From assembly GCF_900113935.1 (NCBI RefSeq), contig NZ_FORF01000007.1:1-64000 (forward strand): a stretch of 64,000 bases of DNA, in the 5' to 3' direction. The DNA comes from Aquamicrobium aerolatum DSM 21857. GTDB lineage: Bacteria; Pseudomonadota; Alphaproteobacteria; Rhizobiales; Rhizobiaceae. The position numbers and the translations under genes were made by a program. A model generated the notes under the pieces. The model searched no databases. It was not told the origin of the DNA and was given only the letters and a program-made list of their open reading frames with translations. Position 1 is the stretch's first letter, and the number at the start of each line of letters is the position of its first letter. Below, in pieces: positions 1 through 62,228 of the stretch.

Positions 1-281
1 CCCCGATGCATCCCCAGACCCAGGGCAAGATCGAGCGCTGGCACCAAACCATGAAGAACCGCATCCTGCTGGAGAACTACTTCCTGCCCGGCGACCTGGA
101 GGCCCAGATCGGCGCCTTCGTCGAACACTACAATCACAGGCGCTATCATGAGAGCCTCGACAACGTGACCCCGGCAGACGCCTACTTCGGCAGGGCCGCA
201 GCCATCATAAAACAGCGCGAAAGGATCAAACGACAAACCATCCAGCATCGGCGCTTGCAGCACCGCAAGCTCGCCGCATAA
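1..281 (+). CDS. IS3-family transposase OrfB, C-terminal part (5' end outside window)
   Basis: This is the C-terminal end of a DDE-type integrase-core transposase, which cuts and joins the ends of an insertion sequence. The open frame runs in from the window edge and ends with TAA at 279-281. The visible part carries the GKIERWHQTMK segment, whose Glu is the last member of the DDE triad, then the HYNHRRYHESL and TPADAYFG blocks seen at the end of IS3-group OrfB proteins. A basic tail of about 30 residues follows. No OrfA or left end is visible, so completeness of the element cannot be judged. It sits just downstream of a minus-strand operon in an accessory region, which fits a mobile or recently acquired segment. 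Confidence 0.85.
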   Translation, partial: PMHPQTQGKIERWHQTMKNRILLENYFLPGDLEAQIGAFVEHYNHRRYHESLDNVTPADAYFGRAAAIIKQRERIKRQTIQHRRLQHRKLAA

Positions 282-435: not shown

Positions 436-1212
436 CTACGTAGTTCTTAGCCGATACTTGCCGCGACCGTCTGATCTAATTAGGGTCTTCCATGCTGAAT
501 GACGGCCAAAAAGATTGACCATACGCATGTTCAGATCCGTTGACCCAGCTTCCTTCAGCAGGGTCTTGCCGAGGCGCCATGGTTCGGAAGTCCCCGCGGC
601 GGCGTGAAGAAGGCGGATAACAGCTCGATTGATTTCACCCGTGAAGCTGAACAACTCACCGTGCAGTCTGACTTCTGAATAGTCGGGAGCGTGCCAGAAC
701 GGATCGCCATCATCAGCTTCCTTGGTCGGCCCATTTGTCGCCGCGTCGTATCGCATCTGGCAGGCTTGATGGTCGTGACGACCCGCTCGCTCAAGACAGC
801 TTCGAATTGTTGCCCTGATATTCTGGTTTTTTACGCTCAACGGCTTCAGGATGAAGGCATCGATGCCGTCATTATATGCATCGATGATGTTCTGGGGTTC
901 GTGCCCATGCCCGCTGACCACAATTACTGGCAAGAAGTGTACGCCGGTGTGATTGCGATGCGGGAACCGCTGCCGGATTTCGTGCAGAAGTGTCATCCCG
1001 GATTCGACCCGTGGCTTGATCGAAGCACGATCGGCCTTGATCTGCAGATCAAGCAGCACATAACAGAAGCCTCCTCGATCGAGACAGTCCAGCCCTTCTT
1101 CAAGCGTTTCGGCATGGATGTGATCATATCCGAAGGACCGCAGCAGATCGCCGATCTCGGCTGCCATATCGGGTTCGTCCTCCACGACCAGAGCAACATG
1201 ACGATGGTTCAT
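436..1212 (-). CDS. Response regulator with winged-helix-like C-terminal domain
   Basis: 258 aa. Residues 1-135 form a receiver domain: acidic pair E11-D12 (with E13), phospho-acceptor D55 in LLDLQ, S100 in VVVSGHG and conserved K123 in ILKPL. About 15 extra residues follow the D55 strand. Residues 175-258 look like a small winged-helix DNA-binding domain, but I do not recognise it as OmpR- or LuxR-type. The gene starts four bases after the histidine kinase stop, with a good ribosome site (GGAGG about 9 nt upstream). It is therefore the last gene of the ATPase-kinase-regulator operon and the likely phosphotransfer partner of that kinase. Target promoters are unknown; the repeat at 4467-4499 in front of the operon is one candidate. 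Confidence 0.8.
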   Translation of the reverse strand: MNHRHVALVVEDEPDMAAEIGDLLRSFGYDHIHAETLEEGLDCLDRGGFCYVLLDLQIKADRASIKPRVESGMTLLHEIRQRFPHRNHTGVHFLPVIVVSGHGHEPQNIIDAYNDGIDAFILKPLSVKNQNIRATIRSCLERAGRHDHQACQMRYDAATNGPTKEADDGDPFWHAPDYSEVRLHGELFSFTGEINRAVIRLLHAAAGTSEPWRLGKTLLKEAGSTDLNMRMVNLFGRHSAWKTLIRSDGRGKYRLRTT

Positions 1213-1216
1213 TTCG

Positions 1217-2350
1217 TCAGTCCTCCAGCCGTAACTGCTCGACCGGCAGAATGATCGTCACCGTGGTGCCAATGCCAATCTGGCTTTCGAGCGAAAGCGT
1301 GCCGCGATGTCCGATCTCGATGACTCTTTTCGCCAGCGGCAGGCCAAAGCCCATGCCGCTCTTTTTGCCGGTACTGTAAAGCAGCAGGCAGTCCTTCACG
1401 GCCTCTTCATTCATCCCGCAGCCATTATCGGCGATCGTGATCCTGATGTGATTTTGGCCTTCAGCTTGTGCGACCACCATGATCGTGCTGTCGCTCGCCT
1501 TGCCAGAGCAAGCCTCGATGGCATTGGCGATGATATTGATGAACGCTTGGAGAAGGCGCGAACGGGACGCTTCCAGTGTCAGCGGAGCAAAGAGTTCAAG
1601 ACGGATATCAATGCCGCCGCCTGCTTCCTGTCCTGTTGAGAGGTCGATCGCCTCCTGAAGAAGGGGATACAATCCTTCCGTTGCAAACACTGTTGGTTCG
1701 TCGGTCGTAAAGGCCCGGAGATTGTCGAGGAATTCGGTGATCAGCCGGACCCGCACTTGCGCGCGAGTGCAGGACAGGCGCACACGATCAGAAACACCGT
1801 CGGCGGTTTCAAGCTCGTTGGCAAGGTTGAGCAGGAACGCATCCAAGGGTGCGATGATCCTGGAGATTTCGTGATAGGCTTCCCGCACAAATCGATGATG
1901 GAGCTGATCGGCAATCCTCGATGCGGTCCGTCGTGCCCGAGGCCCATGCCGCGCTTCGAGCGACGATAGCAGGTCGAGCGTTGCATCATCCTGATCGTTA
2001 CCACCGATATCGGCGCGCGTCAGGTTCTCGCGGCGACGCAGCGTCTTGCGCGCGGCTTCCCGGACCCAGGCGTTCTCGTCATCAACGAGCGAGCCGATCG
2101 TGGCGAGGAAGCTGTCGTGGCGCAAAAACAGCATGGCGTGTGCAAGCGCCTTGCGGACCTGCCATTTGGTATGGCCCGCCAAACGTACAAAGCGTGCGGC
2201 GATCTCCGCCCTGAAGCGATCATTGATTCTGCGTGCACGCAGCCAATCGCCGGCTACCTCCACAGCATCGCGCACAGTATTCCAATCGTCAGCGTCGAGC
2301 TCCGCAAGCAGGGCCTGCTCTTTATCCTCCCCCATGGCGAGCTGCTTCAA
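1217..2350 (-). CDS. HEAT-repeat histidine kinase
   Basis: 377 aa, no signal peptide or membrane segment, so a soluble sensor. Residues 45-110 contain helical HEAT-type repeats (WQVRKALAHAM; AWVREAARKTL). A coiled dimerisation region carries H160-E161 as the probable phospho-acceptor. Residues 225-370 form the HATPase domain, with N-box N276, the DNGCGM box at 308-313 and a G-rich lid (STGKKSGMGFGL, 326-337). A HEAT input domain in place of PAS or periplasmic sensing suggests that it senses a protein or nucleic-acid complex, plausibly the ATPase encoded just upstream. The TTG start at 2350 overlaps the ATPase stop (TTGA); an ATG at 2335 is a possible alternative start. Its product would phosphorylate the next gene's response regulator. 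Confidence 0.8.
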   Translation of the reverse strand: MKQLAMGEDKEQALLAELDADDWNTVRDAVEVAGDWLRARRINDRFRAEIAARFVRLAGHTKWQVRKALAHAMLFLRHDSFLATIGSLVDDENAWVREAARKTLRRRENLTRADIGGNDQDDATLDLLSSLEARHGPRARRTASRIADQLHHRFVREAYHEISRIIAPLDAFLLNLANELETADGVSDRVRLSCTRAQVRVRLITEFLDNLRAFTTDEPTVFATEGLYPLLQEAIDLSTGQEAGGGIDIRLELFAPLTLEASRSRLLQAFINIIANAIEACSGKASDSTIMVVAQAEGQNHIRITIADNGCGMNEEAVKDCLLLYSTGKKSGMGFGLPLAKRVIEIGHRGTLSLESQIGIGTTVTIILPVEQLRLED

Positions 2351-4269
2351 TGGCCATATTTCTGCATGCGCAGAACAAACGCTTCCTTGCCGCCTTCCAG
2401 CAGATGCTCAATCTGGTCCTTGACCTCTTCGACGGTTCCTACATTGGAAACAGTGCCTTGCCTGCCGTCCGATGAAAACACGAATACGCGCTCGGCCTCA
2501 CCAAGGACCGGAATATTCGGATTGTGCGTGACGAAGATGAGTTGGCGATTGGCCTTCACCCCACGCAGGCTCCTGACGATGGTGTCATAGACGAAGGCGT
2601 TGTCGAGATTGTCTTCCGGCTGGTCGATGAGCAGAGGGCGGTCGCTTTCGAACAGCAGGATCGGCAGGATTACCGTACAACGCTGGCCGGTCGACAGATC
2701 AGCCGAATTCTTGAAGTCGGAACCGTCCTTCAGGGCAATCAGCGGTTCATCGCCAAGGTCGATGGTTTCCAGCCGACCGATCTGGTCGCTGTCCTGCAAA
2801 TGAGCGATGATGCGGGAGGCTTGATCCTCAGGCATGTCTCCATCCTCGGCAAGACGGCTCGTGTCGCCCCGGCGCACGATCCTTGACAGCTCCTCCGGCG
2901 ACAGGTTTTCCACCATGCGTGCGGTCAACCGGGCATATTGCAGACCGCAACCTTTCAGCATTTCCTTTAGCAGCGTCTCGTAGCCGGTTTTGTCGGCGGC
3001 CTGCGTAAGCGTCACCCGCACCGTCGGTGCCAGTGCTGCCGAAAGCCGTTCGGCCACATCACGGCGCAGACGAAAGCGCTCGTCGCGCAAATCGGAAAGT
3101 CTGGAGTTCAAGCTCCGGTGGTTTGCCTCCAGTTCCGTGAGCTTTTGACGCAGGCCATCAAGTTCATGACGGGCCCGGGTCAGCTCAAGGTGGCGCTGCT
3201 GCAGCTTTGTCCTTTCAGCGGCATGTTGACGTTCCTGCTCGGAATGGGCGATGAGCTGGCGATAATTTTGCTCCTGGTGGACATGTGCTTCCCCAAGATG
3301 GTGCGATACCTCATCAAGGCGCGAGACAAGAGCATCGCAATGGTTCCGGAGTTTCGGGACGGCATCTGTAAAAACCGCAGTAAAATTGTCGATCGCGACC
3401 TTGATGTCCTCAAACAGAGGGCCGTTCGGGCCAGCGCGACAGTCATCCCCCGAAGCGTTCGCGAAATTCTCGACGACCGCGCCAGCAAATCGCGAGAACT
3501 TGGTGGCTGTCGATCCGGCAAGTTCGCGCAGTTCCCTGATGGTCTCCACTTCGCGGGCTCGAAGCGCCTTGTGTTCATGGGCAGCATTGATCAGATGTGC
3601 ATCCGCACCAGTAACGGCCTGCATCTCCTCCAGACGTTTGTTGACCACCTCCAGTTCGGGAACGACTTCTTCGATTTCGCGGATCCTGTGGTCGTAATTG
3701 CGCAGCTCCAATGAGTTCTGCTCGATCACACGCCGAAGCTTCTGGATTTCCGCATTGGCGATACGAATGGGCTCTTCGGCGAATTTGTCGATCAATGCCA
3801 ACTGGAACTTAGGGTTGGTGGCGATTTCCTCGATCTCGTTCTGGCTGTAGATGTCGGCCTTGAAGACGAGATCGCGATCAAGGGAAACAGCAACAGGATT
3901 GCCATCCTGATCGAGAACCTGGACGTCGTCGCCCCATGGTCGCTCAGCCCGATAGCGGGTTCCGTGTTTGGTCTCGACATCGAGTGTGATGGTGCCGCTG
4001 CCGAGATTGTTTCGTACATGGCTTTCAGTTGCCTTCACCCTTGGCCGAGCGTCATTGCCATCCGGCAACATGCCAAGAATGTAGCGAATGAACTCCAGCA
4101 CCGTGGTCTTGCCGGTACCACGGCCGCCGATGATGCAATTCAGGCCATCGCTGAATTCAAGCCGCGCTCCATCGAGAAACCCGCCTGCTACACTGATGCT
4201 GTGGATCCGGTGATGTGACCGGGCAGCTTCTGAGTGGTTCGATATATCTAGAGCGGATCTGTTTTCCAC
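2347..4269 (-). CDS. SMC/RecN-like coiled-coil AAA ATPase
   Basis: 640 aa. Walker A GGRGTGKT lies at 48-55. A long Glu/Arg-rich helical region at about 170-400, probably coiled coil, separates it from the C-terminal half. That half carries an ABC-type signature LSTGQR (525-530), Walker B LLIDQPED (546-553) with a D-loop NLD, and an H-loop Thr-His-Asn (581-583). This split ATPase resembles SMC, RecN and the ATPase part of TrlF-type proteins, which act on DNA or sense DNA ends. The PHP nuclease domain of TrlF is absent. It starts at GTG with GGGGGAG 5 nt upstream and is first in an operon with a HEAT kinase and a response regulator. The molecular role is unknown; sensing or processing of foreign DNA is an inference. 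Confidence 0.8.
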   Translation of the reverse strand: MENRSALDISNHSEAARSHHRIHSISVAGGFLDGARLEFSDGLNCIIGGRGTGKTTVLEFIRYILGMLPDGNDARPRVKATESHVRNNLGSGTITLDVETKHGTRYRAERPWGDDVQVLDQDGNPVAVSLDRDLVFKADIYSQNEIEEIATNPKFQLALIDKFAEEPIRIANAEIQKLRRVIEQNSLELRNYDHRIREIEEVVPELEVVNKRLEEMQAVTGADAHLINAAHEHKALRAREVETIRELRELAGSTATKFSRFAGAVVENFANASGDDCRAGPNGPLFEDIKVAIDNFTAVFTDAVPKLRNHCDALVSRLDEVSHHLGEAHVHQEQNYRQLIAHSEQERQHAAERTKLQQRHLELTRARHELDGLRQKLTELEANHRSLNSRLSDLRDERFRLRRDVAERLSAALAPTVRVTLTQAADKTGYETLLKEMLKGCGLQYARLTARMVENLSPEELSRIVRRGDTSRLAEDGDMPEDQASRIIAHLQDSDQIGRLETIDLGDEPLIALKDGSDFKNSADLSTGQRCTVILPILLFESDRPLLIDQPEDNLDNAFVYDTIVRSLRGVKANRQLIFVTHNPNIPVLGEAERVFVFSSDGRQGTVSNVGTVEEVKDQIEHLLEGGKEAFVLRMQKYGH

Positions 4270-4466
4270 GTTTCTCCCCCTTATGAATTATTGCGGCGAC
4301 CGTCTTTGCAGTCTTGTGCCCTCCTCCAGATTTAATGTTCCTATTTTGTTCGCATTTGTAAAAGAGTCAATCCGTTGCCTCCCGCCGTATCACGAATGAC
4401 TTCGCGAGAAGACGTTCAGCTATGATAAGATATTGATATTGCTTGTGTTTGGTAATTTCATGACCT

Positions 4467-4499
4467 ACCGTTCGCCTATCAAGATTAATGGCGAACCGT
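4467..4499. promoter_or_regulatory. Inverted repeat in the divergent intergenic region (candidate operator or recombination site)
   Basis: ACCGTTCGCC at 4467-4476 and GGCGAACCGT at 4490-4499 form a 10-bp inverted repeat with one mismatch and a 13-bp spacer. It lies in the 218-bp, relatively AT-rich gap between the ATPase operon (leftward) and the recombinase module (rightward), overlapping the first possible start of the small gene at 4488. It could be an operator for the local response regulator or a recombinase-associated site. No factor can be assigned from sequence alone. Confidence 0.4.
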
Positions 4500-4730: not shown

Positions 4731-5227
4731 ATCAAGCAGTCAGAAAGCACGCCGGAAGCCGCAAAACTCTGCCGGATGCCGACACGTCGGTCCTGGCCCG
4801 ATTGGCGGCGCTGAAACGCATGTCGGTCAGGGAGCTGAAACTCGAGTGGGAAGCGTTGTTCGACACGCCGGCACCGAACAACAGCCGTGGCAATCTGGAG
4901 TTGCGACTATCCTGGCGCATCCAGGAACTGGCGCTGGGCGGTCTGTCCCGGCAGACGGCCAGGATACTGGAGCTGCTCGCCGACGAGGTCGACGGCAAAT
5001 CCGATCGCAAGGCGATCCTCGCCGACCCGCGCACTCCGGTTGTCGGCACAAGGCTGGTGCGCGAATGGGACGGCGTCGAACACACGGTGACTGTGCTGCG
5101 CGATGGCTTCGAGTGGCAGGGGCGACGCTTCAAATCGCTATCTGCTGCTGCGCGCGCGATCACCGGCAGCAACTGGAACGGTTATCGCTTCTTTGGTCTT
5201 GGCGATGCGCGCAGGAGTGAACGATGA
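4727..5227 (+). CDS. DUF2924 domain protein
   Basis: 166 aa. It shows the DUF2924 pattern: an N-terminal helix (LARLAALKRMSVRELKLEWEALF), an arginine-rich LRLSWRIQELALGGLS helix, then a small beta domain (GTRLVREWDG...HTVTVLRDGFEWQGRRFKSLSAAARAITGSNWNGYRFFGL). The C-terminal part resembles domains that contact DNA. Its function is not established. It is coupled by ATGA overlaps to the small gene upstream (4727-4730) and the serine recombinase downstream (5224-5227), which points to an accessory role in recombination. Confidence 0.85.
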   Translation: MNQAVRKHAGSRKTLPDADTSVLARLAALKRMSVRELKLEWEALFDTPAPNNSRGNLELRLSWRIQELALGGLSRQTARILELLADEVDGKSDRKAILADPRTPVVGTRLVREWDGVEHTVTVLRDGFEWQGRRFKSLSAAARAITGSNWNGYRFFGLGDARRSER

Positions 5228-6543
5228 ATATTCGACCGCCCCAACGCCGTTTGCGCTGCGCCATCTATACGCGCAAATCCTCCGAAGAAGGCCTCGACAT
5301 GGAGTTCAACTCGCTCGATGCCCAGCGTGAGTCCTGCGAGGCCTACATCGCCAGCCAGCGCTCGGAAGGATTTGCTGCGATCCGAGAACGCTACGACGAT
5401 GGCGGCCACTCCGGAGGTACGCTGGAGCGACCGGCGTTGCAGCGGCTGCTGGCCGATGTCGAAGCCGGGCTCATCGACGTCATCGTCGTTTACAAGATTG
5501 ACCGGCTATCGCGATCATTGATGGACTTTTCCAAACTGGTCGAGATCTTTGAACGCAATCAGGTGACGTTCGTGTCGGTCACCCAGTCCTTCAACACCAC
5601 AACGTCGATGGGACGGCTGACGCTTAACATCCTGCTTTCATTCGCGCAGTTCGAGCGCGAGGTGATTGGCGAGCGCATTCGCGACAAATTTGCCGCCTCG
5701 CGCAAGAAGGGCATGTGGATGGGTGGCTATGTCCCGCTTGGTTATGATGTCCGCGACCGGAAACTGGTGATCAATGGAGAAGAGGCCAAAACGGTCAGGC
5801 TGATCTTCGAGCGCTTCGTGGCGATCGGATCGGCCACAAGGCTGGCGAAGGCGCTGGCGGCCGAGGGCGTCGTCAACAAGCGCGGCAGGCTGGTCGATAA
5901 GGGCTTTCTCTACAAGCTGATCAACAATCGCATCTATATTGGCGAGGCTGTGCATAAGGGAACCAGCTATCCGGGTGAGCATGAGGCGATCATTGATCGT
6001 GAGCTATGGGACGCGGTCCATTCCATTCTGAAGACCAGTCCTCGGCTACGTGCCGCCGCGTCGAGAAACCAGACCCCTGCGATGCTGAAGGGGCTGATTT
6101 TTACCGACACCGGCACCGCGATGACGCCGACTGCCACCAAGAAGGGCAGCAAGCTCTATCGTTACTATACGTCGATGGACCTGATCCGAAACCGCCCCAC
6201 CGATGCGGGAGGGCCGCAGCGGCTTCCTGCTGCCATGGTCGAGGATGCAGTTGTCGGCGAAATCCGCCACATGATCGCCACGCCCGAAATCAGAGCGCGG
6301 GCGCTCGCCGCCCTGAAAACTGACATGCCAGACATCGACGATAAGGCGGTGATTGCCGCGCTTGGCGATTTCGACACGCTCTGGGCCTCGCTGTTTCCTG
6401 CCGAACAGGCGCGCATCGTCCAGCTTCTGGTGGCGCGCATCACGGTTGGTGCATCAGGCCTTGCCATCGACCTGCGCCATGACGGCCTCAAATCACTGGC
6501 GCGGCAGATGATGGCGCCGCAGATCGAAAAGGATGCGGCATGA
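5224..6543 (+). CDS. Large serine recombinase (site-specific integrase/excisionase type)
   Basis: 439 aa. Residues 11-150 form the resolvase catalytic domain: YTRKS with nucleophile S19, the DGGHSGGTLERPALQRLL stretch, VYKIDRLSRS, and LLSFAQFEREVIGERIRDK. The recombinase domain follows at about 170-260 (GYVPLGYDV...FLYKLINNRIYIGEAVHKG). The third region, normally a zinc ribbon with four cysteines, reads GLIFTDTGTAMTPTATKKGSKLYRYY and has no cysteines. Such enzymes integrate or excise phages and islands at short att sites. The gene is coupled to DUF2924 upstream and to a small helix-turn-helix-like gene downstream (ATGA 6540-6543). Its att sites could not be identified. Confidence 0.92.
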   Translation: MNIRPPQRRLRCAIYTRKSSEEGLDMEFNSLDAQRESCEAYIASQRSEGFAAIRERYDDGGHSGGTLERPALQRLLADVEAGLIDVIVVYKIDRLSRSLMDFSKLVEIFERNQVTFVSVTQSFNTTTSMGRLTLNILLSFAQFEREVIGERIRDKFAASRKKGMWMGGYVPLGYDVRDRKLVINGEEAKTVRLIFERFVAIGSATRLAKALAAEGVVNKRGRLVDKGFLYKLINNRIYIGEAVHKGTSYPGEHEAIIDRELWDAVHSILKTSPRLRAAASRNQTPAMLKGLIFTDTGTAMTPTATKKGSKLYRYYTSMDLIRNRPTDAGGPQRLPAAMVEDAVVGEIRHMIATPEIRARALAALKTDMPDIDDKAVIAALGDFDTLWASLFPAEQARIVQLLVARITVGASGLAIDLRHDGLKSLARQMMAPQIEKDAA

Positions 6544-6938
6544 CGGAAAACACCATCCGCGTAGTCATTCCGCTGACCATTCGCAAGACGAACGGTCGTC
6601 CGAAAATCCTGCCGCCGGCCGACCACGGACCCGCCGAGACGCGGGCGCAGGACGCGCATGTGCTACGCGCCATCGCTCGCGCCTGGAACTGGCGGCGCAG
6701 GCTGGAGCGCGGCGAGGCCTCGACCATTGCCGATATTGCCAAGGCCGACAATGTCAGCGATCGCTTTGTCAGCCGGATGATGCGACTGGCCTATCTTGCC
6801 CCGGACGTGCTGGAAAGGCTGCTCATCCATCGCATCCCGCCGTCCTTGTCGCTCAATGATCTGATGGTTGTCGCCGAACTGCCATGGGCGGAGCAGATGG
6901 AAGCGGTATTCGGCACGCCATCAGATTCTACTCTGTGA
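6540..6938 (+). CDS. Recombinase-module small protein with helix-turn-helix-like segment
   Basis: 132 aa, soluble. Residues 40-85 (HVLRAIARAWNWRRRLERGEASTIADIAKADNVSDRFVSRMMRLAYLAP) look like a helix-turn-helix with a clear recognition-helix pattern. A C-terminal segment (LNDLMVVAELPWAEQMEAVFG) follows. Proteins of this form are commonly found after DUF2924-associated serine recombinases. The ATGA overlap with the recombinase makes it the fourth gene of the unit. A role as recombination directionality factor or autoregulator is possible but not shown by sequence. Confidence 0.75.
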   Translation: MTENTIRVVIPLTIRKTNGRPKILPPADHGPAETRAQDAHVLRAIARAWNWRRRLERGEASTIADIAKADNVSDRFVSRMMRLAYLAPDVLERLLIHRIPPSLSLNDLMVVAELPWAEQMEAVFGTPSDSTL

Positions 6939-9409: not shown

Positions 9410-9499
9410 TGGCGGAGAGAGAGGGATTCGAACCCTCGATACGGTTCCCCGTATACACACTTTCCAGGCGTGCGCCTTCAACCACTCGGCCACCTCTCC
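9410..9499 (-). tRNA. tRNA-Ser (anticodon GGA)
   Basis: 90 nt including an encoded CCA (9410-9412). The acceptor stem GGAGAGG pairs with TCTCTCC (one G-T pair), followed by discriminator G. The anticodon stem CACGC/GTGTG closes a CTGGAAA loop, giving anticodon GGA, which reads UCC and UCU. A long variable arm (TATACGG/CCGTATC type) marks it as class II tRNA-Ser. The T arm is GAGGG-TTCGAAT-CCCTC. Its 3' end faces the accessory segment at 1-9409. Confidence 0.96.
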
Positions 9500-31779: not shown

Positions 31780-33321
31780 TCAGGCCTGTTCGGCGATCAG
31801 GCGCTTGAGCAGCTCCAGTTCCTGCGCCATCGTGTTGTCAGCGCCCGACAGCCCTTCGATCTTGCGCACTGCGTGCAGAACCGTGGTGTGGTCCCGGCCG
31901 CCAAAACGACGCCCGATCTCGGGCAGAGAGCGTGGTGTCATCACCTTTGCCAGATACATCGCGATCTGGCGCGGCTTGACAATCGTCCGGGTACGCCGGT
32001 TCGAAAGGAGCTCGTTCTTCGATACGTTGTAGTGGCGGGCGACAATGCGCTGGATGTCCTCGATGCGCACGCGCTTGGGCTCGCCGGCGCTGTAGACATT
32101 GCCGAGAACCTCCTTCACCCAGTCGATCGACATTTCTGGCTCGAACGACTGGCGGAACAGGATCTGGTTGAACGCCCCCTCCAGTTCGCGACCGCTACCG
32201 GTCACGGTCTGGGCGACATGGGACAGGATCTCTTCCGGAATTTCCAGCGTCGGCATTTCCATCCGTGCGGCGGCGTAACGCTGCTGCAGGATCGACAGGC
32301 GCATCTCGTAGTCTGGCAGCGCCATTTCGAGCGCAACGCCGCCATTGAGGCGCGAGCGCACGCGTGGCTCCAGCGACTCCAGTTCTGATGGTGGGCGGTC
32401 CGCCGCAACCACCACCTGCTTGGCGCTGTCGAGGAGCATGTTGATCAGATGGCAGAACTCGTGCTGGATCGACTTGCCCTGCAGGAACTGCATGTCGTCG
32501 ATGATGAGAAGGTCGATGTCGCGCAGCTGCTCCTTCAGGTGCAGCGCGTAGTTGTCGCGAATTGCCGTTGCAAAACGCCACATGAAATATTCAGCCGTCA
32601 GGTAGACGACGTGAGCCTGCGGCTTGAGGCGGATTGTTTCCGCGGCAATTGCCTGCAGCAGATGGGTCTTGCCGAGGCCGACGGACGCATGAATGAACAG
32701 CGGGTTGAAGCGCAGCGCGCTTGGCGAAGACTCAGACAGGGAGCGCGCGGCGGCAAAGGCGACGCGGTTCGACGGCCCCTGGACGAAGGAATCGAACGTA
32801 TAGCGCGGGTCAAGTGGGGAGCCGAGCACAGCTTGTTTGCCCTGGCGCTCTGCGCCGTGCACTGGCTGCGATGGGATCGCGCCTTCGGCACGCGCCATTG
32901 TCGGCATTGTCTGGGCGGTTGCTGTGGGGCGAATGTTGTTTCTGCGTGCCGGCGCCACGTCTTCCTCGACGGGTGCGACGCTGCGCGCGGCAGAGCGGAC
33001 GACGATTTCCACCTTGAGCGTGGATGGCTCGGTCTGCTTCCACAATTCGGTGATCACGTCGAGATAGTGACTGTTGATCCACTGGCGAAGAAACGCGGTA
33101 GGCACCGAGAGGCGGATCAGGCCACGGGAGGCCTCCGCCACTTTCATGCGGCCAAACCAGCTCGAATAGACGTCATTGCCGAGGCGGGCCTTGAGCTGCG
33201 CTTTCACGCGCTCGAAATTGGCTTCAGTGCCGCCTGCTGACGTCATGCCGGTCCCCTCGTTCGATGTTGCTGATTCAAACGACGCCGTATCGGCCGCCGC
33301 TCTTTCGATGCCGCTGTGCAT
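31780..33321 (-). CDS. dnaA: Chromosomal replication initiator DnaA
   Basis: 513 aa. Domain I at about 30-105 ([22 protein letters not shown]...LRQWINSHY), a poorly conserved linker, AAA+ domain with Walker A around SVGLGKT (213-219) and Walker [11 protein letters not shown] (271-280), and C-terminal DNA-box binding domain ending with [15 protein letters not shown]. It binds DnaA boxes and melts the origin. Start chosen at ATG 33321 (MHSGIERA), which leaves a 792-bp leader to rpsT; the frame is open further upstream to 33477 but that part is not conserved-looking. Five GANTC sites in the leader suggest methylation-linked control. Confidence 0.96.
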
Positions 33322-33726
33322 GCTTCTTGACTTTCCCTGTATGACTTCCGCCTTGCGTCGCTGTCGATTTCTAACCGCATCCGACTTGACGACGCAGTAC
33401 ATCTTGTCCCGCGTTCTATATGCTTGGTGGTCCACCTTCCTTCTCGCTGGTGCCTGATGGGATTTGCCGTCAGTCACAAAAAATGCGCAAAAAAGACCGA
33501 CCTCGAGCCAGAGCCCGAAGTTTGAATACCCTTACGTCTTTGCAGTCCCCTGTCCACGAAAGGCCATATATTGGACGTCCGCGGGGAAGTGCCCACGGCT
33601 CAAATATGCCTAAAACTGGCTGGATTAGCGGTCCAATATGCCCGCCCCTTCGATGACTGGACTTTACAAAATGAGGCGGTCAAAGGGCAAGAGACAGAAG
33701 TGGAATTTTTCGTCCTCAAGGGCAGA

Positions 33727-33863
33727 GATTCAGCTTGACTCGGGTCCGCCAAGATCAGCCCGTCTCACAAAAGCCTTTTGATTCAAAACCTTTGCCGTTC
33801 TGCGACCGATTGACTCATTTTGCTATAAAAATTGCTTGACAGCGAAAGCCTCTTCAAAGACTC
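33727..33863. promoter_or_regulatory. Cluster of five GANTC (CcrM) sites upstream of dnaA
   Basis: GATTC at 33727, GACTC at 33737, GATTC at 33780, GACTC at 33812 and GACTC at 33859: five sites in 137 bp, against about 0.5 expected by chance at equal base use. CcrM adenine methylation of GANTC is a cell-cycle signal in alphaproteobacteria and affects dnaA transcription in Caulobacter. Confidence 0.55.
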
Positions 33864-34054
33864 GCCAGAATGCCTCACTTGAGAGCCGTACCTAGGGTAA
33901 GCTTCTGATATATAAGCACAAAATATGCCGCTGGCGTGCTTGGTGGTGCCGTTAGGTCGCCGCCGGCTGCCGGTCAAGCCAGTGTATGCCGACAAAAGGA
34001 GTTACTTCCCATAAGGTTACGCAAGATCAATTGTCGGCAAAGAATTCACGCAAC

Positions 34055-34086
34055 AAAAAACCCGGTCGCAATGCGCCGGGTTTTTT
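34055..34086 (-). terminator. Terminator downstream of rpsT
   Basis: CCCGG-T-CGC (34061-34069) and GCGCCGGG (34073-34080) form an 8-bp stem with one bulged T around an AAT loop, flanked by A6 and T6 runs. It can work in both directions and lies 28 bp after the rpsT stop. Confidence 0.85.
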
Positions 34087-34113
34087 AATGCGAATACTAA
34101 GAAGGAGGCTAGC

Positions 34114-34380
34114 TCAGGCAGACAGTGCCTTCACGCGCTGTGCCAGACGCGAAACCTTGCGGGACGCCGTATTGCGATGGAAGACGCCCTTGGAGACAGC
34201 GCGCATCAGCTCCGGCTGGGCGACGCTGAAGGCAGCCTGTGCTGCATCCTTGTCGCCGGCGGTCAGCGCCTCTTCAACCTTGCGGATGAATGTGCGGACA
34301 CGCGAGCGACGGTTCTTGTTGACCGCGGTCTGGCGAGCGATCTTGCGCGTAGCCTTCTTGGCCGAAGACGTATTGGCCAT
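34114..34380 (-). CDS. rpsT: 30S ribosomal protein S20
   Basis: 88 aa, very basic. [39 protein letters not shown] and the C-terminal [23 protein letters not shown] are standard S20, a primary 16S rRNA binder. A terminator follows at 34055-34086. The rpsT-dnaA order is common in this bacterial group. Confidence 0.98.
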
Positions 34381-34553
34381 AATGCCTCTCTCTCACTATC
34401 TCAGTGTGGGCACCTAGGCGGATAGTCCGTTGAGGAGATACCGTCAGGCGCAATAAATACAAGGGGCGGATTTATACCGCCCAGTTGCGGCGGCTTATAG
34501 AGGAGCTTTGCCCGGACGTCAACGCTTCAGTGGCTTGAATCCGGGGACAAAAC

Positions 34554-35327
34554 TCATTGGTTGCGGAAGTTGGGTGCACGTTTGTCCGAAAAGGCTTCCA
34601 TGCCCTCTTTCTGGTCCTCAAGGGCGAACATGGAGTGAAACACCCGCCGCTCGAAGCGCAGGCCTTCCGTCAGTGTGGTCTCATAGGAGCGGTTGACGGC
34701 CTCCTTGTTCATCAGCACCGCCGGCAGCGAGAACGAGGCGATCTTTTCAGCTGCCTTGAGCGCTTCGTCGACCAGTGTTGCAGCGGGAACCACGCGCGAC
34801 ACCAGACCGCTGCGCTCCGCTTCCTCAGCGTCCATCATCCGACCCGTCAGGCACATGTCCATTGCCTTGGATTTGCCGACAAAGCGGGTCAGGCGTTGCG
34901 AGCCGCCCATGCCCGGCATCACGCCTAGCGTGATTTCCGGCTGGCCAAATTTGGCGTTGTCGCCGGCAATGATGAAGTCGCACATCATCGCCAGTTCGCA
35001 TCCGCCGCCGAGTGCATAGCCGGACACCGCGGCAATGATCGGCTTGCGGATGCGCAGCATCGCATCCCAGCCGGAAAAGAAGTCCGCCATATACATGTCG
35101 ATATATGACTTCTGGTGCATTTCCTTGATATCAGCACCGGCCGCGAAAGCTTTCTCTGAACCCGTGATGACGATCGCACCGATCGTCTCGTCAGCCTCGT
35201 AAGCCTGCAGCGCGGCAACGACGTCTTCCTGCATTTGTGAGTTGAGCGCGTTGAGGGCTTTGGGCCGGTTGAGGGTGATGAGGCCCACCTTGCCGCGAGT
35301 TTCGACGAGGATTGTTTCGTAGGCCAT
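34554..35327 (-). CDS. Enoyl-CoA hydratase
   Basis: 257 aa, crotonase family. Oxyanion-hole segments [11 protein letters not shown] and [45 protein letters not shown] are intact, with the two catalytic Glu positions visible in that second stretch and following loop. It hydrates 2-enoyl-CoA in fatty-acid beta-oxidation. Start at ATG 35327 with AGGGAG 8 nt upstream. It lies between mutM and rpsT on the same strand, as in many Rhizobiales. Confidence 0.93.
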
Positions 35328-35370
35328 TGCACGCTCCCTGATATGTCGGATGATCTTGATATGGTGATAG

Positions 35371-36264
35371 CTAACGCTGGCACGCCGGGCAATAGAAGGT
35401 CGAGCGCCCGCTCTGCACGATGCGCGCAATTGGCTTGCCGCAGCCATCCGTGCGGCACGGTTTGCCCTCGCGTCCATAGACCGCAAAACTGTGCTGGAAG
35501 TAGCCCAGCGAGCCGTCAGCCTGAACGTGGTCGCGCAGTGATGATCCGCCTGCGATGATGGCTTCCGCTATGACAGCGCGGATGGCGTCGGCCAGGCGGT
35601 CGCATTTGGCATTGCGTCGACCCGGTGCGGGTGCAATCGATCCAGCCTCTCGTTCGGGCGACAATCCGGCGCGCCACAGGGCCTCGCAGACATAGATGTT
35701 GCCAAGGCCTGCGATCAGCCTTTGGTCGAGAAGAGCCGCCTTGAGCGGGGTGCGTTTGCCGCGCAGCAAGTCGCCCAGCAGTTTGCCGTCGAGCGCGTTG
35801 CCTGTCGGTTCGATGCCGAGGCCGGCGAGCGACGGATGCTCGTGCAGCGTCGCGGCATCTGAAAAGATCATGAAGCCGAAGCGACGTGGATCGTTAAATA
35901 CAACCCGATGCTGCGCGCCCGATGGTTCAAGCAGGTGAAAGACAACATGGTCGTGCGCCTCGATTTTCGAGCGCTCGTGATGAAATTCGCCGGGTGTCCT
36001 GTCGTCCTCGCCGGAGAGGATCCGAAACGAGCCCGACATTCCAAGATGGCAGATCAGGACCGGGTCCTGATCAAGATGTATCGTCAGATATTTTGCCCGC
36101 CGCCCCAGTGACACGACCACGCGATCTGTCAATCTGGAGACAAAGTCTTCTGGAAAAGGAAACCGCAGATTGGGCCTGCGCTGCTCGACACGCGTGATGC
36201 GCGAGCCTTCGAAGACGGGTTGCAACCCGCGGCGAACTGTTTCGACTTCGGGGAGTTCAGGCAT
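35371..36264 (-). CDS. mutM: Formamidopyrimidine-DNA glycosylase
   Basis: 297 aa. N-terminal catalytic [14 protein letters not shown] (P2, E3), [32 protein letters not shown], and a C-terminal zinc finger with C-x4-C and C-x2-C (CRTDGC...FYCPAC). It excises 8-oxoguanine and formamidopyrimidines. The start codon lies inside the last codons of deoB (8-bp overlap, 36257-36264), an odd pairing discussed in findings. Confidence 0.96.
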
Positions 36265-37483
36265 GGTTCAAAAGCGCCCGGAATGATGTTCCATGGGATC
36301 CAGCTGCGATGCCGAGATGCTCGGCAATGGTCTCGCCAATGTCGCTGAATGTTGCGCGTACACCCACCGACACGGCTTTCAGCCCTGGACCCGTGCCGAT
36401 GATCGGAATCCGCTCGCGCGTGTGGTCCGTACCTTTCCAGGTCGGATCGCATCCATGATCGGCGGTCAGCAGGAGGAGATCGCCGGGCTGCAGCAGCGCG
36501 AGCACTTCAGGCAGCCGGGCATCGAAGGCCTCGAGCGCTGCTGCATAGCCGCAGACATCGCGCCGATGGCCGAAATTGGTGTCGAAGTCGACGAAATTGA
36601 CGAAGACGAGATCGCCGCTGTCGGCATTGTTGATCGCTGCAATCGCCTGATCCATCATCGCCATGTTGTTCGGCGCTTTGCGCAGGCTGGAGATGCCTCG
36701 GTGAGCAAAGATGTCGCCGATCTTGCCGACTGCGTGGACCTGGCGGCCCGCCGATACGAGCCGGTCAAGCAGCGTCGGTTCCGGTGGTGGCGTGGCGTAG
36801 TCCTTTCGGTTCGCTGTACGTTCAAACGTCTCTGGAGTTTCACCGATGAACGGGCGCGCGATCACGCGGCCGATATTCATATCGTTAGCCAGTCTGCGGG
36901 CGATCTCACAAACATGGTAAAGTTGCTGGAGGCCGAAATGCTGCTCATGCGCTGCAATCTGGATCACGGAATCCACTGATGTGTAGCAGATCGGTTTGCC
37001 GGTCCGGATATGCTCCTCGCCATACTGTTCGATGACTTCGATGCCGGGGGCATGGCAGTTGGCGAGTATGCCGGGCAGACCTGCCTCCCTGATGAGCGCA
37101 TCCGTGAAATCTTGCGGGAATGCGGGATGGGTATCGGGAAAGTAGCCCCAGTCGAATGTAACGGGCAGTCCTGCAATTTCCCAATGGCCGGAAGGCGTGT
37201 CCTTTCCAGACGAAATTTCGGTGGCGGCACCGAAAAAGCCGTTGACCGTTGCTGCGGGCAATGGCCGGTCATGATTGATTGCAGCTGCATGCGAGAGGCC
37301 GAGAGCCTGCATGTTGGGAAGGGAAAGCGGCCCTGAGCGCAGTCCCGCGACATCCGCGTCCCCGTTCGCGCAGGCTGCCTCGATATGGCCGAGCGTATCG
37401 GCACCCGCATCGTCAAAGCGGGCTGCATCGGGTGCTCCGCCAATGCCGAAGGAATCGAGGACAAACAGAAATGCACGTGCCAT
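36257..37483 (-). CDS. deoB: Phosphopentomutase
   Basis: 408 aa. Alkaline-phosphatase-fold mutase: [94 protein letters not shown] carry the metal and phospho-threonine sites. It interconverts (deoxy)ribose-1- and 5-phosphates, the step after PunA and DeoA. ATG 37483 is chosen; a long N-terminal extension in the same frame has no conservation. The last three codons and stop lie in the mutM 5' end. Confidence 0.95.
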
Positions 37484-37595
37484 CTGAGCAACCTTTGCCG
37501 GTCTTGGTCCGTCAAGAGATAGGAGGCGAGGTGAGGCTTGGCAATTCAGAAACCATAGTCGGGGATGATTGCCGCATGAAGAGGGAGTGCCGATC

Positions 37596-38450
37596 TTGGT
37601 AAGATACATGATCCGGCTCTGCGCGTTGCTGATGGCAATGTCGCAGGCAGCCTTGTCGCAGCCACGGACCGAAGAGCCATTCCGTATCGGCATGGTGGTC
37701 GCTGCCTCGGATGTACCTGAGATCGAAGGGGTGTCCGGGATACGCGAGATGTTTTCGCGCGCATTGGGTCGCTCTGTCGAGGTCATCGCGGCGCGTGATC
37801 ACGAAGCGCTGGTGGCAGCTCACGTCGCCGGGCGCGTCGACTATGCCATTTATACGGCCCTTTCCTACGCTGCAGCCGCTCGGTGTGGATGCGTGGAGCC
37901 GATCGCGACCCCTATGACCAGCGAGGGCGCAATCGGTGTGCGCTCGATCTTGATGACCAGAACTGAACGGGCGCTGGAGCGTATTGCGGTTGGCGCTCCT
38001 GATAGCGTGGCGGGTCGACTTGCGCCGCTGGCGTTGTGGCCTGATGCGTTCGAGGCGCGTTCGGCGCAGCGCCTTGTCGATTTTCCGAGCGCGCAGGACG
38101 CACAAGAAGAGTTTGTTGCCGGTGCGGTTGATGCAATTTTTGGCTGGGTTCCGGTGTCATCATCCGGCGAAAACCTGCCCGGTGGAACACCGGATCGACT
38201 TGCCGCGATGAGCAGCGCAGGCACCGAGAGCAGGATCGAATGGGAATCGGATGTCTTGCGTCATGGTCCCCACGCAGTCCGCGCCGACCTGTCGCGCGAT
38301 ATGCGCCAGAAGCTTGTTGCGATGTTGGTCGACGGCACCGATGCGGAGCTGGTTTATATCAATCGCGCCTATGGGGGAGGGTTCGTGGCAGCTTCACGAG
38401 ACGACTACCAGCCGGCAGTCAAAATTCTGGAGTCGTTGGAGGCTGAATAG
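37596..38450 (+). CDS. PhnD-like periplasmic substrate-binding protein
   Basis: About 284 aa. A signal peptide ([18 protein letters not shown]) is followed by a PhnD/phosphate-phosphonate-type binding fold: [89 protein letters not shown]. Start is either TTG 37596 (GAGGGAG 8 nt upstream) or ATG 37608. No ABC permease or ATPase is nearby, so it is an orphan receptor whose ligand is unknown. It diverges from deoB and converges with the pilus-associated genes. Confidence 0.72.
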
Positions 38451-38469
38451 GAAGCTGGCGTTGACGCTC

Positions 38470-39054
38470 TCAGCAGGATGCACATTGAACATCCGAGCTC
38501 ATGCGCGGGCGCAGATAGTACGTCTCTGACATGTTGATGTTGTCAAAAGCGGCTGCAAGTCCCATTGCTGCTTTGCCGTCCGCGCTCCAGGCGATCACCG
38601 GGCGATAGTCGAGCTCGCTTTCCACCCGCACAATAAAGGTGTCGCGAATTTTCAGCGCAGTCGGGACGCTGGTCACTGTCCCCTTGAGAGCAGCGCGGCT
38701 GAAAACCCCGTTTGCCATCTTGCGGGACCATACGACCTGAGCCTTGGGGGTCGCTTCGTCTGTCAAATAGATGCCGGTCACGGCAATACGCGGCGCGGAG
38801 CGGCCATATGGCTGGAGCACGGCGCTTCCGATCTGCATGATTGCATCGAGTTCTGCCGGGGTTACGTCGGCATTCTGGGCAACGAGGTCGGCTACCATGG
38901 ATCCGATCCGGCTGACTTTCTTGTTGTTTTCGATCGCCTGCGAAACCTCCATCGAAAGGAAGTAGAATATCAGTAGAAACGGAACGATCAGTGCAAATTC
39001 GACAACTGCAACGCCCTGTCGATCCTTGACCAAGCGCAAGATCCAGTCACGCAT
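38470..39054 (-). CDS. TadE-like pilus assembly protein (second)
   Basis: 194 aa. A short basic N-terminus then GVAVVEFALIVPFLLIFYFLSMEV, the pseudopilin-like TadE segment with the conserved Glu, followed by a long extracytoplasmic domain ending in a C-x2-C pair. TadE-type proteins are minor pseudopilins of the Flp/Tad system. Start is ATG 39054; an ATG at 39081 overlaps the upstream TadE gene (ATGA). It is last in a minus-strand unit divergent from the main pilus cluster. Confidence 0.83.
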   Translation of the reverse strand: MRDWILRLVKDRQGVAVVEFALIVPFLLIFYFLSMEVSQAIENNKKVSRIGSMVADLVAQNADVTPAELDAIMQIGSAVLQPYGRSAPRIAVTGIYLTDEATPKAQVVWSRKMANGVFSRAALKGTVTSVPTALKIRDTFIVRVESELDYRPVIAWSADGKAAMGLAAAFDNINMSETYYLRPRMSSDVQCASC

Positions 39055-39077
39055 CGCTGCCCCCAGATAGATGGCCG

Positions 39078-39668
39078 TCATTCTTCAAACGGCTCGTTCT
39101 GCCACGTCACAGTGGCGTAGTGCAGTGTCTTGCCGTCTGGCAGATTGGACATTGCCTTGCGCATGAGGTCTGTCATCACCGGCCATCGATAAAAAACGCG
39201 CAACTGGTTCTTCGACTGGGCATCGCCCAGGGCGATCTTGAAGTCCTTGACGTCGAGATCACCATCCGGCTTGAACTTGACCTTGTGATCGGCTGCCTGC
39301 TTGAAGGTCGCATGTGATCGCAGGTCGATTTCCAGCCCGGGGCAGCCTTTTGATACGACAATCTGCAGCGGTTCGCAGATCATGTCGCGTAGTTTGTATT
39401 GCAGATCCGTCGGGTTGATGTCTGCAGCCCGGATCTGGCCGGTGCGGAATTTGCGTGCAACATCATCCGTCACGCTGGTCATGACCTGTTGTGCCGCAAA
39501 CGAGATGCAGCTTTCCAGGATGGCGAAAACCAGAAGGCAGAAGGGAAGGGCAAGTGCTGCAAATTCGATCGCCACATTTCCATCGACGCTACGCCTGAAG
39601 CGATGGAAAATGGAACGGGAAGTTTGTGACTTCGTCGTTGCCCCGTGTGGCGTGTTATTGTTGACCAT
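39078..39668 (-). CDS. TadE-like pilus assembly protein (first)
   Basis: 196 aa. After a basic N-terminal 28 residues, GNVAIEFAALALPFCLLVFAILESCISF is the TadE hydrophobic segment with Glu after the leader-like Gly. The rest is extracytoplasmic with two Cys. It overlaps or abuts the second TadE-like gene by ATGA. Both likely build the minor components or tip of the Flp pilus. Confidence 0.85.
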   Translation of the reverse strand: MVNNNTPHGATTKSQTSRSIFHRFRRSVDGNVAIEFAALALPFCLLVFAILESCISFAAQQVMTSVTDDVARKFRTGQIRAADINPTDLQYKLRDMICEPLQIVVSKGCPGLEIDLRSHATFKQAADHKVKFKPDGDLDVKDFKIALGDAQSKNQLRVFYRWPVMTDLMRKAMSNLPDGKTLHYATVTWQNEPFEE

Positions 39669-59796: not shown

Positions 59797-61124
59797 GCCA
59801 TGAAATGATCGCTCTCATGATGTTCGCCGGCATGGTTTTCCTCATGCTGACCGGACAGAGGGTTTTCGCAATGATCGGCGCAGTCGCCGCCGCGAGCGCA
59901 CTGTCCCTTTATGGCAATGCTTCCGCGGAACTGCCGTTCAATGCGGCGTTCAAGCTATTTTCCTGGCATGCGCTGCTGACACTGCCGCTATTCGTTTACA
60001 TGGGCCACATGATGTCGAAGAGCGGCATCGCCGAGGAACTCTACCAGATGATGCATGTCTGGTTCGGCAAGCTGTCCGGCGGCCTTGCGCTGGGGACCAT
60101 CTTCCTGATGGTCATCATCAGTGCGATCAACGGCCTGTCGGTGGCCGGCCTTGCGATCGGCTCTGCCATTGCGCTTCCCGAAATGCTGCGACGCGGCTAC
60201 GACAAGGTGCTTATCACCGGCGTGGTGCAGGGTGGGTCTACGCTTGGGATCCTGTTGCCGCCGTCGGTGGTGATGGTGCTGTTTGCGGTAATTGCCCGCC
60301 AACCCGTGTCCGATCTGTGGCTGGCCGGCGTTTTCCCGGGCCTGCTCATGGCGGTCATTTTCGCCATCTACGTCTATGTCCGCGTCAAGCTGAACCCTTC
60401 TCTGGCACCGAAGCTGAGCGAGGAAGAACTCGCGATGCCGCTCAGTGAGAAACTGAAGCTTCTGCGCGCCGGCATCATCCCCGTCCTCATCTTCGTCTTG
60501 ATGATCGGCCTGTTCGTCACCGGCAATACCAGCCTCCTGGAAAGCGCTGCCGTCGGCGCGACTTCCGCGACACTGGCGGCGGCCTGGAAAGGGCGTCTTT
60601 CCTGGTCGCTGATCAACGAGACCGCGCGCGAGACGATGTCGATCTCGGCTCTGTTCATGTGGGTGATACTTGGTGCGCTCGCGTTCTCGTCGGTGTTCGA
60701 CGGCATCGGCGCAGTGCGCGCGATCGAGAATGTGTTCATCCACAATTGGGAACTGTCGCCGTGGATGGTCATCGTGCTGATGCAGCTGAGCTTCATCGTG
60801 ATGGGCATGTTCCTTGATGACACCGCGATGCTCGTCATCGTCGCGCCGCTCTATATCCCGCTGGTGGCTGCCCTCGATCTGGGTATTGAAAACCAGATGA
60901 TCTGGTTCGGCATTCTCTACACGATGACCTGCCAGATTGCCTATATCAGCCCGCCCTTCGGCTACAATCTGTTCCTGATGCGTGGGTTGGCTCCCAAGGA
61001 GATAACGCTGGTCGACATCTACAAGTCGATCTGGCCGTTCGTTCTGATGATTATGTTCACCATCGCGCTGATCATGATGTTCCCGCAGATAGCGACATGG
61101 CTTCCAAGCTACGTCCGTGGATAG
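59793..61124 (+). CDS. TRAP transporter large permease (DctM)
   Basis: 443 aa, about 12 membrane segments. FYGN-type opening GQRVFAMIGAVAAASALSLYG, TLPLFVYMGHMMSKSGIAEELYQMMHVWFGKLSGGLALGTIFLMVIISAINGLSVAGLAIGSAIALPEMLRRGYDKVLITGVVQGGSTLGILLPPSVVMVLFAVIA and the C-terminal ISPPFGYNLFLMRGLAP are standard DctM. ATG 59793 overlaps the small permease stop; the longer frame upstream lies inside that gene. Confidence 0.94.
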   Translation: MSHEMIALMMFAGMVFLMLTGQRVFAMIGAVAAASALSLYGNASAELPFNAAFKLFSWHALLTLPLFVYMGHMMSKSGIAEELYQMMHVWFGKLSGGLALGTIFLMVIISAINGLSVAGLAIGSAIALPEMLRRGYDKVLITGVVQGGSTLGILLPPSVVMVLFAVIARQPVSDLWLAGVFPGLLMAVIFAIYVYVRVKLNPSLAPKLSEEELAMPLSEKLKLLRAGIIPVLIFVLMIGLFVTGNTSLLESAAVGATSATLAAAWKGRLSWSLINETARETMSISALFMWVILGALAFSSVFDGIGAVRAIENVFIHNWELSPWMVIVLMQLSFIVMGMFLDDTAMLVIVAPLYIPLVAALDLGIENQMIWFGILYTMTCQIAYISPPFGYNLFLMRGLAPKEITLVDIYKSIWPFVLMIMFTIALIMMFPQIATWLPSYVRG

Positions 61125-61148
61125 AAAAGAAAACCGAAGGAGAGTGGA

Positions 61149-62228
61149 ATGACTGGAATCATCAAGCCGCAATCGCCGTCCGAGCGCATTCTGGCCACCC
61201 GCCGCAAATTCCTGACCGTTGCTGGTCTGGCAGCACCGGCAGCGCTTGCCGCGCCTGCGATTGTGCGCGCCCAGGCACCGATCAAGTGGCGTTTGCAGAC
61301 CTATTCTGGCGCGCCGCTTGGCGCTCATGTGATCAAGCCGCAGATCGACGCCTTCAACGCGGCAGCCAATGGCGAGATGGAAATCGAGCTCTACTACGCC
61401 GACCAGCTGGTGCCGACCGCCGAGCTGTTCCGTGCGTTGCAGAACGGCACGCTCGATGCGATTCAGTCCGACGAAGCGACAATGGCGTCGCCGGTCGACA
61501 TCGCTGTCTTCGGCGGCTACTTCCCGTTCGCTACGCGCTTCAGCCTCGATGTGGCGTCGATGTTCATGTATTACGGCCTCGACAAGATCTGGGAAGAAGC
61601 CTACGCCGAGGTCGAGAACGTTACCTATCTGTCGACGGGTGCATGGGATCCGCTCCACATCTTCACCGTCAACAAGCCGATCCGCAGCCTTGCCGACCTC
61701 AACGGTCTTCGTGTTTTCGGCGTGCCGACGGCCGGTCGCTTCCTGTCGAAGTATGGCTTGATCCCTGTCACCGTCCCCTGGGATGACGTTGAAGTTGCCA
61801 TGCGCACTGGCGACCTCGATGGCGTCGCCTGGTGCGGCTTCACCGAAACCTACGAGGTCGGCTGGGCCGATATCTGCAAATACGCCCTGTCCAACTCGAT
61901 TACCGGTGCATGGTTCGGCTCTTACTTCGCCAACACCGCCAGCTGGGAAAAGGTGCCGCCGCATCTGCAGCAGCTCTACCGTAGCACGATCGACCAATCG
62001 CACTACTACCGCAACGTCTGGTACTGGGGCGGTGAGGCGCAGTTGCGCGTCCACGGCGAGAAGATGGAGCAGACGCAGCTTCCGGCCGACGAGTGGGCAC
62101 AGGTAACGAAGGATGCCGAAGGCTTCTGGGATGAGATGGCAGCCGGCTCCGACCGCGCGGCTCGCGTCGTGGAAATCTTCAAGCGCTACGCAGCCGACCA
62201 GCAAAAGGCTGGCTATCCGTACCGCTGA
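61149..62228 (+). CDS. TRAP transporter substrate-binding protein (DctP, Tat signal)
   Basis: 359 aa. An N-terminal twin-arginine signal (RRKFLTVAGLAAPAALAAPAIVRAQA) targets the folded protein to the periplasm. The DctP fold follows: WRLQTYSGAPLGAHVIKPQIDAFNAAANGEMEIELYYADQLVPTAELFRALQNGTLDAI, then GLRVFGVPTAGRFLSKYGLIPVTVPWDDVEVAMRTGDLDGVAWCGFTETYEVGW with the Arg and Trp positions that hold the ligand. AAGGAG precedes ATG 61149. Substrate unknown; context suggests a polyol or related compound. Confidence 0.93.
   Translation: MTGIIKPQSPSERILATRRKFLTVAGLAAPAALAAPAIVRAQAPIKWRLQTYSGAPLGAHVIKPQIDAFNAAANGEMEIELYYADQLVPTAELFRALQNGTLDAIQSDEATMASPVDIAVFGGYFPFATRFSLDVASMFMYYGLDKIWEEAYAEVENVTYLSTGAWDPLHIFTVNKPIRSLADLNGLRVFGVPTAGRFLSKYGLIPVTVPWDDVEVAMRTGDLDGVAWCGFTETYEVGWADICKYALSNSITGAWFGSYFANTASWEKVPPHLQQLYRSTIDQSHYYRNVWYWGGEAQLRVHGEKMEQTQLPADEWAQVTKDAEGFWDEMAAGSDRAARVVEIFKRYAADQQKAGYPYR

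Follow-up and report, generated by a model that had tools for sequence, protein, structure and literature searches.

Gene organization and domains of the operon

We analyzed a stretch of 64,000 nucleotides from Aquamicrobium aerolatum DSM 21857 (contig NZ_FORF01000007.1, positions 1 to 64,000; hereafter the window), in which a preliminary description made from the sequence letters had pointed to an operon for an ATPase, a kinase with HEAT repeats, and a response regulator as a candidate defence or DNA-sensing system. The operon consists of three minus-strand genes, whose open reading frames (ORFs) were confirmed, in the order ATPase (4269–2347), kinase (2350–1217), and regulator (1212–436). 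The ATPase and kinase genes share 4 bases, and 4 intergenic bases separate the kinase and regulator genes; the three genes, their overlap, and their spacing agreed with the preliminary description.

2347..4269, minus strand: SMC/Rad50-like ATPase of the TrlF/Ppl superfamily without a PHP domain, 640 amino acid residues (NCBIfam TrlF_fam_ATP, motifs, conserved columns)
1217..2350, minus strand: soluble histidine kinase, 377 amino acid residues (Pfam, AlphaFold (AF2) model, fold match, alignment of 37 kinases)
436..1212, minus strand: response regulator, 258 amino acid residues (Pfam, AF2 model, Foldseek, alignment of 36 relatives)

The ATPase gene starts with GTG, downstream of a strong Shine-Dalgarno sequence, AGGGGGAG. 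Its product contains the Walker A motif GGRGTGKT (residues 48–55; DNA 4105–4128), the signature LSTGQR (residues 525–530; DNA 2680–2697), the Walker B motif LLIDQPED (residues 546–553; DNA 2611–2634), and an H-loop with H582 (region 2500–2532), and a coiled coil is encoded at about 2950–3777. These motifs, already noted in the preliminary description, were largely invariant across 12 aligned relatives. Pfam assigned AAA_23/AAA_21 to the protein, and the solved relatives found by profile were SMC5 and Rad50. The NCBIfam model TrlF_fam_ATP (NF045780) matched residues 13–639 with an E-value of 6.6e-92, which bears out the proposed TrlF-like nature of the ATPase; the match covered model positions 286–944 only, and its score of 310 bits was below the TrlF cut-off of 350 and far below the Ppl cut-off of 1000. 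The Spaf_1101 and Ppl models of NCBIfam gave weaker matches, and the PADLOC matches (Ppl, mad3, and LmuB) were all partial. No PHP domain was found in the ATPase, which begins at the ATPase module and leaves TrlF model positions 1–285 unmatched, and no PHP gene adjoins it. In the PHP-containing relatives, the PHP domain precedes the ATPase, with DLHxH-type motifs near the N-terminus. By its profile match and motifs, the window ATPase is a member of the TrlF/Ppl superfamily without the N-terminal PHP nuclease.

The kinase gene starts with TTG and encodes HEAT-like helices (2009–2329), a DHp domain (1706–1942), and a HATPase domain (1235–1684). Pfam matched HATPase_c (3e-20) and, under the curated cut-off, HEAT_2 (5e-5). 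The HEAT region was supported by the AF2 model (mean predicted local distance difference test score (pLDDT) of 86.5), whose best solved fold match was the cytoplasmic kinase ZraS; neither Pfam nor the model gave a TPR match, HEAT_2 and HEAT-like helices being found instead. The phospho-accepting His160 (codon 1871–1873) was invariant in the 37 aligned kinases, as were N276 and D308/G310 of the HATPase boxes.

In the regulator, Pfam matched Response_reg (5e-11), and the receiver lies at 787–1197 with Asp55 (codon 1048–1050) as the phospho-acceptor; D12, D55, and K123 were invariant in the 36 aligned relatives. The AF2 model (pLDDT 89.6) contains a C-terminal OmpR/PhoB-type winged helix at 445–699, in agreement with the winged-helix-like end of the preliminary description, although Pfam recognized no domain in this part. 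The model resembles OmpR/PhoB regulators in combining a receiver with a winged-helix output, and Foldseek gave full-length matches to RpaA, KdpE, VanR, and PhoP, the low full-length TM (template modelling) scores of which are, we think, due to domain orientation. It differs from these regulators in its partner kinase, which is cytosolic and linked to an ATPase. The window regulator is thus predicted from its model to be of the OmpR/PhoB type with a winged-helix DNA-binding output, an assignment that applies to the window protein itself, as the C-terminal part varies among the more distant regulators of its clade (B, see below). The conservation of the phospho-His, the HATPase boxes, and the phospho-Asp in the alignments indicates that the residues of a two-component relay are intact.

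Conservation of the gene set and its promoter

A class-wide search yielded one further true kinase homologue, in genome G097 with identical gene order, and true homologues were present in 2 of 289 genomes of the class. An order-wide search with a kinase profile returned mostly generic kinases at E-values of about 1e-30, and two of the matches were real. Two metagenome genomes of alphaproteobacteria and one viral contig make up the named relatives. When plasmids were searched with the ATPase, a second operon type (clade A below) was found in Phaeobacter, Leclercia, and Caballeronia. Because the window kinase matched only generic sensor kinases on plasmids, the short clade A kinase was taken as the query, and more loci were found in Klebsiella, Rhizobium, Shinella, Rhodococcus, Pantoea, and Vibrio. 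Many more loci were added when 398 genomes of the phylum, and also viral contigs, were searched with the ATPase profile. Few candidates were scored per genome, so that prevalence is a lower bound, and the locus counts exclude near-copies and truncated loci. No DNA match to two clade A operons was found in complete Escherichia coli genomes.

Outside the window, 48 distinct PHP-less loci from several bacterial groups have a kinase and a regulator next to the ATPase (46 by profile, with 2 further kinases by tblastn), with overlapping genes in the same order. An apparent absence of the kinase in three loci (L061, L062, and L097) was an artefact of ORF calling; tblastn found it in all three. The link between ATPase and relay runs in both directions, since the ATPase served to find 39 of the loci and the kinase the other 9: all 39 distinct PHP-less loci with enough sequence had the kinase and then the regulator, and the ATPase was present in all 9 loci found through the kinase. 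In contrast, none of the 14 PHP-fused loci had an adjoining kinase and regulator, although the PHP-fused set is more divergent and the two groups are therefore not independent samples. The tree is compatible both with loss of the PHP domain and with gain of the relay. Distances among the ATPases, kinases, and receivers co-varied over 46 operons (r of 0.92–0.96; 0 of 999 permutations). No intact kinase–regulator pair lacking the ATPase, the pattern that the preliminary description had named as contrary to its proposal, was seen. A possible exception is a short kinase and regulator on Piscirickettsia plasmids (L138) with no intact ATPase adjoining, which is apparently a decayed clade A operon. 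Regulators similar to that of L138 occur on about 36 Piscirickettsia plasmid records.

The tree separated two clades, A and B, each a single group with strong support. In clade A, the product of the third gene joins a receiver to an APH/TCAD9-like kinase, in which the alignment shows HGDLHxxN and ID(Y/F) motifs. Such fusions, seen in L022–L030, L110, and L113, would correspond to a receiver-controlled small-molecule or protein kinase effector. The regulators of clade B, to which the window operon belongs, are shorter than those of clade A.

The promoter of the window operon has the form TTGACT-N13-GAACAAAATAGGAAC and contains a box whose reverse complement is GTTC-N7-GTTC.

4337..4351, minus strand: LexA-type operator GAAC-AAAATAG-GAAC, overlapping the predicted -10 element CAAAAT (sequence, conservation)
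4365..4370, minus strand: -35 element TTGACT of the operon promoter (conserved in 8/10 clade members)

The SOS box of Caulobacter is GTTCN7GTTC (PMC9578287; PMC4211646). The box together with TTGACT at a distance of 13–14 bases was found in 8 of the 10 members of the window's own clade, representing about four lineages in which the other upstream DNA has diverged. Because the box appeared in only about 0.3 to 1.8 percent of shuffles per region, its recurrence at one position in four lineages is very unlikely to be due to chance. The host lexA gene carries a box of the same type, GAACACAAATGGAAC, just upstream of its probable start, while no exact box was found upstream of the host recA. Gamma-type LexA boxes (CTG-N10-CAG) upstream of other clade B copies were too loose to count. 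Judged from the operator, the operon is probably SOS-induced via LexA. A second conserved block, GGTAGG...AAACA.AAG.AAA..TCAATA.CTTA on the ATPase strand, lies at 4429–4475, where close relatives share it between the divergently transcribed genes, and is possibly a recombinase promoter or a regulator site.

Mobile carriers and genomic setting

Clade A is carried mostly by plasmids and by a few viral contigs, and clade B mostly by phage-like contigs and serine-recombinase elements, with some copies in defence islands. The three-gene order proposed for varied islands is conserved on phages, plasmids, and islands. Among the neighbours that recur in clade B, a Sak4-like AAA gene was present at 21 loci and DUF2924 at 19 of the roughly 46 loci of type B; genes for a helicase, a putative nuclease, and DUF669 accompanied 16, 12, and 11 loci, respectively. 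Many carrier records are phage or prophage DNA, as a terminase was present on 10 of the 23 viral records tested. The ATPase was found in none of 7 congeners, and AAA_24, the family of the element's replication gene, had no match over the cut-off elsewhere in the host genome.

Known defence genes, near which copies were expected in the preliminary description, adjoin some loci: Hachiman (L024), AbiE (L030), a type I restriction-modification methylase and a WYL regulator (L061), and a DISARM/BREX-like helicase (DrmD/BrxHII-like) with WYL (L071). Most clade B copies are on phage-like elements. Genome G293 has three copies of the operon (L068, L071, and L072) near WYL and defence-type helicase or nuclease genes, with no recombinase seen nearby. 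The gene that follows L068 matches HTH_26 and sigma-70 region 4.

In the window, the operon is flanked by the following features.

3..281, plus strand: 3' end of an insertion sequence (IS) transposase (rve_3), outside the system (Pfam; at the contig edge)
4727..5227, plus strand: DUF2924 protein of the divergent recombinase module (Pfam PF11149, 4e-48)
5224..6543, plus strand: large serine recombinase (Pfam Resolvase 2.5e-38, Recombinase 3.2e-16)
6540..6938, plus strand: small conserved protein after the recombinase (weak SopB-HTH match; L076 has a similar N-terminus)

The module of DUF2924 and serine recombinase genes adjoins the operon in divergent orientation. The preliminary description had placed the operon beside an IS element and a recombinase module; the transposase end, DUF2924, and the serine recombinase are real, but the IS end on the left is the assembly edge, since window base 1 is the first base of the contig and the DNA beyond is out of reach. 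Core chromosome genes follow at 31780–39081 (dnaA, fpg/mutM, and a TadE-like gene), which places the operon in the dnaA region, at the end of a contig. The window also contains a tRNA-Ser gene at 9410–9499. A 738-residue ORF on the minus strand at 59988–62204, with no Pfam match at 1e-5, overlaps opposite-strand ORFs and may be a shadow ORF.

Relation to known systems and proposed function

The nearest characterized relative of the window ATPase is Ppl, which reportedly was described as an anti-phage protein by Gao et al. in 2020. TrlF (NF045780) and Ppl (NF042955) share the ATPase module with the window protein, including the Walker A, LSxGQR, IDQPED, and H-loop motifs; they differ in having a PHP exonuclease, and the kinase and regulator that follow here do not follow in the PHP-fused loci examined. 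Ppl has been reported to sense nucleotide depletion and the 3' ends of DNA, its exonuclease requiring such ends and freedom from bound nucleoside triphosphates (PMC12904381).

Detocs (DtcA kinase, DtcB receiver buffer, and DtcC receiver-effector) likewise relays a signal between soluble two-component proteins to an output fused to a receiver, and its setting is also mobile and defence-like. However, its kinase senses through TPR rather than HEAT, it has a separate receiver buffer gene whereas the window operon has a single receiver gene and is led by the SMC-like ATPase, and its effectors are not the winged helix (clade B) or APH-like kinase (clade A) of the present family. Together with the lack of a PADLOC Detocs match, these differences, of which the preliminary description had correctly drawn those in sensor repeats and effectors, led us to reject membership in Detocs. 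Lamassu/DdmABC and MADS (mad3) also contain an SMC-like ATPase that is thought to read the state of DNA, and the window ATPase matched the LmuB (2.9e-14) and mad3 (3.5e-18) profiles weakly, but LmuA/LmuC-type or MADS partners are absent and a two-component relay is present instead. Membership in Lamassu was rejected, there being no LmuA-like neighbour and the LmuB match being partial. Neither PADLOC 2.0.0 of 2023 nor the literature, with few subscription papers and preprints covered, described a two-component relay combined with an SMC/TrlF-type ATPase, and the literature on TrlF, HEAT-kinase, or SMC-kinase systems gave no matching description. Among the predictions of the recent DefensePredictor paper are unvalidated systems containing HATPase and REC domains, with which the present family possibly overlaps. 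The family combines known modules in a conserved arrangement for which no description was found in the literature searched.

As the promoter has a DNA-damage (LexA) operator, the operon is probably an undescribed DNA-sensing, defence-like system; the conserved box and the relay in place of the PHP nuclease are both in favour of DNA sensing. Starting from what can be read in the sequences, namely gene order, domains, intact relay residues, the exchange of PHP for the relay, mobility, and the LexA-type operator, we infer the signal, the ATPase–kinase contact, the target genes, and the defence outcome as follows. LexA would keep basal expression low, and DNA damage would raise it. The PHP-less ATPase, with its SMC/Rad50-like head and coiled coil, would, by analogy with Ppl, sense DNA that is abnormal or invading, the probable cue being free ends, an altered nucleotide pool, or both, and its ATP- or DNA-bound state would be read by the soluble HEAT-domain kinase. 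The kinase would then phosphorylate the regulator, which in clade B, as in the window, may switch transcription through its OmpR/PhoB-type DNA-binding domain, and in clade A may act through the APH/TCAD9-like kinase as effector. The likely benefit would be defence against phages or between elements. We hold this SOS-boosted path from ATPase sensor through His-Asp relay to a transcriptional or kinase output, likely serving defence, with slightly better than even confidence. The broader proposal of a phage-, plasmid-, and island-borne immune class, in which a Ppl-type DNA-end-sensing ATPase has its nuclease swapped for a His-Asp phosphorelay and the window branch is armed by the host SOS response, has in our estimate an even chance of being correct.

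Several observations weigh against a defence function. Most clade B copies lie on phage-like elements, adjoining genes for integrase and replication, and the gene set could serve such elements; no known defence system was seen adjoining the operon within the window; and the defence neighbours described above were picked by eye for testing and do not represent a statistical enrichment. Only the window's own clade yielded exact LexA boxes, and a winged-helix output implies regulation rather than a toxic effector. The adjoining integrase and replication genes make control of the carrying element the main rival explanation, in which damage to the host would be signalled by LexA release and by the ATPase, and genes for excision, replication, or lysis would be activated by the OmpR-like regulator. 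The serine recombinase/DUF2924 genes beside clade B copies, the terminase on viral contigs, the LexA-type operator, and the DNA-binding output all fit this explanation, which we nevertheless consider rather unlikely. Some clade B copies have no recombinase nearby, including the three in G293 beside WYL and defence-type genes; clade A is on plasmids and has a kinase output in place of a DNA-binding domain; and the PHP-fused relatives are nucleases, with Ppl anti-phage. The defence-island copies and clade A weigh against element control as the general function, and for clade B it stays a live rival; defence is favoured over it, short of proof.

The kinship with SMC, RecN, and Rad50, the LexA box, and the transcriptional output would also suit a two-component system for DNA damage that, although mobile, has been domesticated and tunes repair or growth of the host after double-strand breaks. 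The sporadic distribution noted above (0 of 7 congeners, 2 of 289 genomes of the class), the carriage by plasmids and phages, and the multiple copies per genome make such a role improbable. That kinase and receiver domains are generic is the only point found in favour of an unrelated ATPase beside a standard two-component pair, assembled on an island by chance. This explanation, of negligible probability, is refuted by the 48 distinct loci outside the window, in which the gene order is conserved, genes overlap, and distances co-vary.

If the element-control explanation were right, the operon would represent a novel kind of switch for inducing prophages or elements, also a result of interest. 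If the defence function is true, the family would join SMC/Ppl-like DNA-state sensors with two-component phosphorelays, which to our knowledge meet only in isolated cases. The clean exchange of the PHP nuclease for a kinase–regulator pair suggests that one and the same sensor, the ATPase, can be reused with different outputs.

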